This document shows positions 6,097 through 7,662 of a DNA stretch of 45,441 bases, one piece after another (the first letter of the stretch is position 1; every line of letters starts with the position of its first letter). Where the stretch lies: contig VXQP01000025.1 in NCBI GenBank assembly GCA_009838965.1, positions 1 to 45,441 on the forward strand, in the 5' to 3' direction. The notes beneath the pieces are model-generated. The model did not search any database. It worked only from the letters and a program-made list of their open reading frames with translations, and was not told the origin of the DNA. The stretch is from Chloroflexota bacterium. Lineage in GTDB: Bacteria; Chloroflexota; Dehalococcoidia; Lucifugimonadales; Australimonadaceae. The position numbers and the translations under genes were made by a program.

Positions 6097-6654
6097 CTAG
6101 ACGGGAGCGGCCTCCGGCAGCGCCTCCCCGTTGAGCGTGAACACGGACGTCACTTCCATGTTCTGCACCAGCGACTGCAGCGCGTAGCAGCTCGACTCCG
6201 CCATGTCCACGAGACGGCGTATGCGCTCAGGCGGCTCGTCCGACTCGACGTTGACCGTGGTCTCGAGCCCCGCAGGGCCACCAACGATAGTGCCCGCGAG
6301 CGCGGAGCCGTCGCGGTAGAAGCGCGTCGTCTGCTGCAGCCGCACCTTGCTGTAGGCGATGTGGGTCATCTCGCTCAACCGAGCGAGCTGGGTGAGCAGT
6401 CAGAACGCGACGCCCGCCGAGAAGTAGGCGAGCGGTGAAGGTGCGGTGTCGTCACCGCCGATGCGGGTCCCCTCGTCGCAGATCATCTCGAACGTGCTGC
6501 CCGTGCCGCCCCCGGAGCGGACGCGGGCCAGCTTTCGCTGGCGCTCCAGCGTCTCCGCCTCGACCTCAATGATGATCTCCCGCCGGACGCCGTCCTGACG
6601 TGCGGCGTTCGGGACAGATTCTCCCGTTCGGACCTTCCTGACGATCTCTTCCAT
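6097..6654 (-). CDS. OsmC-like thiol peroxidase, probable selenoprotein (in-frame TGA = Sec85)
   Basis: One continuous frame of 185 residues if the TGA at 6400-6402 is read through. The ATG at 6654 has AGGAG 7 bases upstream. OsmC/Ohr proteins reduce organic hydroperoxides with two cysteines. The first follows the motif seen here as PSPLAYFSAGVAF-(TGA)-LLTQLAR, so TGA falls exactly where the family has its reactive Cys. The second is kept as Cys156 (ESSCYALQ). Homology continues smoothly on both sides of the TGA with no frameshift. A 7-bp hairpin with a GGTT loop begins 12 bases after the TGA (separate entry), fitting the bacterial SECIS rule. OsmC-like selenoproteins are known from marine metagenomes. 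No selABCD gene lies in this window. The alternative is a pseudogene or a sequencing error (TGC/TGT to TGA). The gene lies 44 bases behind tRNA-Cys with no terminator seen between. Confidence 0.75.
6370..6387 (-). promoter_or_regulatory. SECIS-like hairpin downstream of in-frame TGA
   Basis: On the minus strand CTCGCTC-GGTT-GAGCGAG, a perfect 7-bp stem with a 4-base loop. The loop begins 19 bases after the TGA and its first two bases are GG. The published bacterial SECIS consensus asks for a short stem, a loop of about 3-14 bases with a G in its first two positions, and a TGA-to-loop distance of about 16-37 bases. It lies within the coding frame and encodes LARLSE, an ordinary OsmC helix. Confidence 0.65.
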
Positions 6655-6698
6655 GAGCCGCTCCTGCCGGTAAGGTTGCGCGCCGTGACGAGTGAGGT

Positions 6699-6774
6699 TG
6701 GAGGCGACGGGCGGAATCGAACCGCCGAATAGAGGTTTTGCAGACCTCCGCCTTAACCACTTGGCTACGTCGCC
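6699..6774 (-). tRNA. tRNA-Cys (GCA), CCA encoded
   Basis: Cloverleaf on the minus strand: acceptor GGCGACG/CGTCGCC, anticodon stem GAGGT/ACCTC with loop CTGCAAA (anticodon GCA), T arm GGCGG-TTCGATT-CCGCC, discriminator U73 (expected for tRNA-Cys) and an encoded CCA end. 76 bases. A promoter lies just upstream and the OsmC-like gene follows 44 bases downstream. Confidence 0.97.
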
Positions 6775-6864: not shown

Positions 6865-7662
6865 ATGCCGTTACCTGCCCTACTCTTCCCCCTTGCCATC
6901 GCCGGCGGCTCAGCCGTGGCCCAGGCAACCGCGAAGCTGAGAAGCCACGAGCGGCTCAACGCGCTACGCGTCGAGCTGGAGGAACTGGAATCGCACCACC
7001 GCGAAGCGATCCTCCCGCTGTACGAGCAACAGGTGGGGCTCTGTCACCGGCTGGGTCTGCCGGAGCCGGAGTACCCGGCTTCCCTTCAGGAGAGTGAGAC
7101 GCTCCCTTACCCGCCACCGCTGTGGCAGCGACTCCTCAGGCGTCAGAAGCGCACCGTCGCCGATGGCTCCCCGCACTCGCGTGCCTACATCATCGGACGC
7201 CAGGGGGCCGGCTTCGCCGCCGGCACCGTCTGGAAGGTGTGGTCCGCAACGATCCTCAACCTCGTGCGTCCGGTGGGAGCAAGGCTGCTGACCCTCTTCC
7301 CAGGTGCGGCTCCGGCGGTCGGGACAACCAGTTCACTGGTGTTCGGCATAAGTTTGCGGTTCGCCCTGGGCATCGTCAGCGTGGCCGCCTTCGTCGTGGG
7401 GCCACTCCTGCTGGTATGGGCGGTCGCCCGTGAGGTCAGGAAGGTGCGGAAAGCCCGCCACGAGTTGGAGACTATCCGGACGCGGCGACACGAGGAGTTG
7501 ACCGCTTACAGGGCACGCACGCGGCTGCTGCAGCGGAACGTGCGTATGCGGGCGTACACCAGCTGCCGGGTCAGGCACCGGATACGGCAAGCGAGCGCGT
7601 ACACCTCGCGAAGACGACGTGGTAAACGCACCGTTGCTCGTTCGGAACGTCTCAGCCCCTAG
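6865..7662 (+). CDS. Unknown membrane protein with coiled-coil and basic tail
   Basis: 265 residues, family not recognised. N-terminus is a small Ala/Gly-rich hydrophobic patch (1-22). Residues about 25-60 are a charged helix with coiled-coil character (LRVELEELESHHREAIL). A clear hydrophobic segment spans about 160-192. Residues 193-265 form a second charged helix and a strongly basic tail (many Arg). This looks like a small membrane-anchored protein with cytoplasmic helices. No ribosome site is seen; instead a -10-like TAAAAT lies at 6853-6858, six bases before the ATG, suggesting a leaderless mRNA. Its 3' end overlaps the convergent Ldh2 gene by 4 bases. Confidence 0.6.
   Translation: MPLPALLFPLAIAGGSAVAQATAKLRSHERLNALRVELEELESHHREAILPLYEQQVGLCHRLGLPEPEYPASLQESETLPYPPPLWQRLLRRQKRTVADGSPHSRAYIIGRQGAGFAAGTVWKVWSATILNLVRPVGARLLTLFPGAAPAVGTTSSLVFGISLRFALGIVSVAAFVVGPLLLVWAVAREVRKVRKARHELETIRTRRHEELTAYRARTRLLQRNVRMRAYTSCRVRHRIRQASAYTSRRRRGKRTVARSERLSP

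Follow-up and report, generated by a model that had tools for sequence, protein, structure and literature searches.

A predicted OsmC-fold selenoprotein with a hairpin downstream of its in-frame UGA in an uncultured SAR202-type Chloroflexota bacterium

Results

The window analyzed here comprises positions 1 to 45,441 of contig VXQP01000025.1 of a Chloroflexota genome assembly (GCA_009838965.1). Table 1 lists the features of the locus. The minus strand of positions 6097-6654 holds a frame interrupted by a single in-frame TGA, which lies at residue 85, the position of the reactive Cys in OsmC and Ohr proteins; translation of the plus strand of the same segment gives no OsmC frame. The initial annotation had placed an OsmC-like gene at these coordinates, correctly, and had left the strand unstated. 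Its claims of a TGA at the reactive-Cys codon and of an intact frame, ATG, ribosome site, and second Cys (residue 156) are all borne out when the minus strand is read. The encoded protein is MEEIVRKV...PSPLAYFSAGVAF-U-LLTQLARLSE...SSCYALQSL...NGEALPEAAPV, where U denotes the residue encoded by the TGA.

Table 1. Positions of features at the OsmC-like locus in the window
Feature	Positions	Strand	Remarks
Predicted OsmC-like selenoprotein gene	6654 to 6097	minus	185 residues; ATG at 6654; TAG at 6099-6097
UGA codon, predicted selenocysteine, residue 85	6402-6400	minus	motif F-U-L-L-T (UxxT)
Cys156 codon (TGC), invariant partner of U85	6187..6189	minus	from translation and alignment
Likely ribosome-binding site AGGAG	6661..6665	minus	6 nt upstream of ATG
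Bacterial SECIS-type hairpin	6370..6387	minus	7-bp stem CUCGCUC/GAGCGAG, loop GGUU
tRNA-Cys	6699-6774	minus	44 nt upstream of the selenoprotein start, same strand
265-residue ORF	6865-7662	plus	adjoins tRNA-Cys; no Pfam match at E 0.001

The tRNA-Cys gene keeps its place upstream of the OsmC-like gene in four close relatives (loci L023-L026), separated from it by 44 to 151 nt, which makes co-transcription of the two genes possible. No such tRNA gene was found in L030 and L032, both of which are shorter loci. The flanking genes encode a luciferase-like monooxygenase, a membrane transport protein, an ammonium transporter, and an Ldh_2 dehydrogenase, and none of these four types hints at a substrate.

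The protein matches the NCBIfam model NF041052 (OsmC_like_Se, OsmC-related (seleno)protein) over model positions 2-144 of 144, with an E-value of 5e-49 and 165.9 bits against a cut-off of 95. The Pfam OsmC domain, PF02566, is also matched (E 3.1e-12, 47.2 bits), and a fold search agrees with the OsmC assignment. When 400 Chloroflexota genomes were scanned, 27 had an NF041052 match above the cut-off. One in-frame TGA is present in 26 of the 27 genes, aligned in every case exactly with residue 85, and none is present in the remaining gene; the selenocysteine (Sec) form is thus almost always the one found in this OsmC subfamily in Chloroflexota. The sole exception, L034, has TGC (Cys) in the residue-85 column and lacks a SECIS-like hairpin. 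The proposed alignment of homologues therefore does reveal a Cys/Sec exchange at this residue, and the UGA occupies the Cys position of Cys-containing homologues, namely L034 and the protein of PDB entry 3cje. Counting additional loci on genome contigs, 32 distinct members carry TGA and one carries TGC. All 33 aligned members retain C156 and have either Sec or Cys at position 85. C59 is variable, being Ser in 22 of the 33, so the invariant pair is U85/C156. The UxxT motif reads F-U-L-L-T in this protein, and T88 is present in 30 of 33 members.

The genome contains a second OsmC-domain gene that has no in-frame stop (L001, positions 1501-1785 (C4), 52.3 bits). It is probably a Cys-type paralogue.

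The hairpin CTCGCTC-GGTT-GAGCGAG starts 12 nt past the TGA, its loop starts 19 nt past the TGA, and the first two loop positions are G. The 7-bp stem, the GGTT loop beginning with G, and both spacings had been described in the initial annotation and are confirmed in the sequence, and its other numerical claims hold as well. The local fold energy of the 60-nt stretch is not significant (z = -0.43), and approximately 3.4% of all positions in the GC-rich window have a SECIS-like hairpin that is just as stable and lies within the permitted spacing. When the 20 codons after the UGA were recoded synonymously with local codon usage, 0.53% of 10,000 trials gave a hairpin as stable as the real one, giving a synonymous null of 0.0053 for a SECIS with G in its loop directly after the UGA. 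In a sequence search, the UGA-hairpin sequence had no second copy in the genome. The hairpin by itself is weak evidence for Sec; the comparative data are decisive.

Covariation was scored in 20 ungapped homologues from outside the window's clade. Both sides change in each of the six stem pairs (6/6), and 93.3% of stem cells are paired. The covariation score of 0.556 compares with 0.214 in shuffles, none of 500 of which scored as high, and also exceeds that of all slid registers; this set carries a modest selection bias because L028 and L055 were left out, their best hairpins having loops of different size. Within the window's clade, the hairpin register is shifted by one and the loop is GGUU, as compared to GUU elsewhere. 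The hairpin is nearly invariant there (95.9% paired, with variation limited to G-U type changes and a frayed outermost pair), so the clade itself yields no covariation signal. In many members, the hairpin underlies the residues A-K-F-S-P or A-R-F-A-P, and the amino-acid changes keep the pairing (GGCGAAGTTTTCGCC versus GGCGCGGTTCGCGCC), a pattern that suggests that the RNA itself is under selection.

Selection on the protein was examined by Nei-Gojobori comparison of the part after the UGA with L023-L026. The dN/dS values are 0.009/0.317, 0.009/0.191, 0.076/0.437, and 0.155/0.691, corresponding to ratios of about 0.03, 0.05, 0.17, and 0.22, respectively. These ratios indicate purifying selection and, being low downstream of the UGA, argue that this part is translated. 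For the two most distant of the four relatives, selection after the UGA is no weaker than before it. Decay elsewhere in the gene, which the initial annotation had named as grounds for abandoning its reading, is not seen; the remainder is intact. Under the standard code, the TGA interrupts the frame, and a pseudogene whose catalytic codon had mutated to a stop would account for it. This explanation is highly improbable. The same TGA is found in MAGs at 98, 97, 84, and 74% identity, close relatives from independent projects that include one named SAR202 cluster bacterium, and in distant genera. The part downstream of it is under purifying selection, and the hairpin covaries. The TGA-bearing members also include L027, from a MAG labelled Proteobacteria, and L028, from one labelled Acidimicrobiales, and the recurrence of TGA at this single codon, both throughout the phylum and beyond it, refutes the pseudogene reading. 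An error of sequencing or assembly that turned TGC or TGT into TGA could be imagined in MAG data such as these; it is rejected as still less probable, because independent assemblies from other projects share TGA, rather than TGC or TGT, at this codon.

The genome, 3.01 Mb in size and 96.6% complete, encodes the machinery for Sec decoding. It contains a full-length selB (688-aa open frame, 339 bits), a tRNA-Sec with the anticodon UCA, selA (523.8 bits), and selD (386.5 bits), so that the search for selA, selB, selC, and selD suggested in the initial annotation recovers all four, including the two, selB and selC, on which that reading had been made to depend. The selD gene (L019, positions 1501-2421, C46) has one in-frame TGA of its own, in the N-terminal catalytic segment TSLATCAG-U-AGKF, and an 8-bp hairpin with the loop GGC comes after it. 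It is itself a selenoprotein gene and serves as a positive control from the same genome. Among the 27 genomes with the OsmC family, selA exceeds the cut-off in 26, and the match in G342 is partial; G293, the genome with the Cys form, also has selA. This pattern has little diagnostic weight, as selA is widespread in the phylum, occurring in 31 of 40 comparison genomes. On a 3-kb contig (L004, positions 66-938 (C6)) there is a second SelB-like match, which is partial and, at 189 bits, below the cut-off. It may represent a paralogue, a different translation GTPase, or a stray contig.

A general reassignment of UGA in this genome, for example to Trp or Gly, would fit an in-frame TGA taken alone, but this alternative, with as little chance as a sequencing error, is excluded by the use of TGA as terminator in selA and in 6 of the 15 long window ORFs that were sampled and by the CCA anticodon of tRNA-Trp; the genome also has its dedicated tRNA-Sec, and the homologue without TGA carries Cys at position 85, not Trp or Gly.

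Discussion

Our analysis supports the view that the product of this gene, from an uncultured SAR202-type Chloroflexota bacterium, is an OsmC-fold selenoprotein in which U85 is inserted via SelB and the hairpin and which most likely reduces an organic hydroperoxide. We assign this explanation as a whole a probability of about 0.97. The initial proposal of a probable selenoprotein gains support from the decoding machinery, the conserved TGA, the covarying SECIS, and purifying selection. The reading of the UGA as Sec is a prediction made with high confidence from computed gene content, codon position, hairpin, and selection.

These observations allow us to propose a mechanism. The UGA at residue 85 would be decoded as Sec by SelB and Sec-tRNA(UCA), directed by the hairpin just downstream of the UGA and within the coding sequence. 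The U85 selenolate would then react with ROOH, an organic hydroperoxide or related oxidant, to give a selenenic acid, which could form a selenylsulfide with Cys156. A cellular dithiol would reset the selenylsulfide, as in the Cys-based Ohr/OsmC enzymes. We infer the substrate and the reductant from the family only. In the structure model, which is of moderate confidence (mean pLDDT 73, pTM 0.72), residue 85 sits in the middle of a long helix (74-97) and C156 lies between helices 142-155 and 157-163. The two reactive Cys residues of Ohr and OsmC are similarly placed, and the model of the window protein agrees with this arrangement. C156 is likely the resolving thiol, and the family and the fold suggest that the protein is likely a Sec/Cys hydroperoxide reductase, a putative function.

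An alternative that concerns function only, and is compatible with a selenoprotein, is that Sec is inserted into another selenol/thiol reductase or a carrier, for example one for sulfur or selenium transfer. The protein is distant from biochemically characterized Ohr, the NCBIfam Ohr equivalog reaching an E-value of only 0.088, and the neighboring genes suggest no substrate. However, the OsmC fold is present with both reactive positions invariant, and we regard this alternative as possible but clearly the less likely of the two. A more speculative suggestion, and a rather doubtful one, is that the Sec-dominated OsmC subfamily has a function distinct from the hydroperoxide reduction of Ohr/OsmC, with a dependence on Sec strong enough to make Cys versions scarce in Chloroflexota.

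The predicted hydroperoxide reductase can be compared with three known systems. With Ohr and OsmC peroxidases, it shares the OsmC fold and two conserved reactive positions, whereas Sec would take the place of the peroxidatic Cys; it falls outside the Ohr equivalog model NF052637 (13.1 bits versus a cut-off of 240). Its nearest solved relative by sequence (E 8e-11) and top fold match (E 7.6e-10, TMt 0.78) is Jann_2040 (PDB 3cje), which has Cys at the reactive position, in contrast to the predicted Sec of the window protein. The closest system is the OsmC-like selenoprotein family itself, which the Sargasso Sea selenoproteome study (Zhang et al. 2005, PMC1088965) introduced as new, with the motif UxxT and a predicted SECIS, and which is also listed in the GOS survey (PMC2398784) and later reviews, in keeping with the earlier remark that such proteins are on record from marine metagenomes. 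The NF041052 match and the UxxT motif place the window protein in this known family. Both have the same model, Sec at the reactive position (predicted here), UxxT (here U-L-L-T), and a SECIS just downstream; nothing of substance differs, and the window gene represents another species. Marine bacteria have been known to carry this family since 2005, and the window protein is a further member. A literature search combining selenoprotein with Chloroflexi or SAR202 found no paper on this gene there. Standard-code annotation would show the gene truncated at its catalytic residue. Our understanding of selenocysteine decoding is unchanged by this gene, and the new details are modest: the dominance of Sec in Chloroflexota, one Cys lineage without the hairpin, and a SECIS supported by covariation. 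To the known family, the locus adds a case of in-frame UGA from a SAR202-type lineage that combines SECIS covariation with Sec/Cys exchange.
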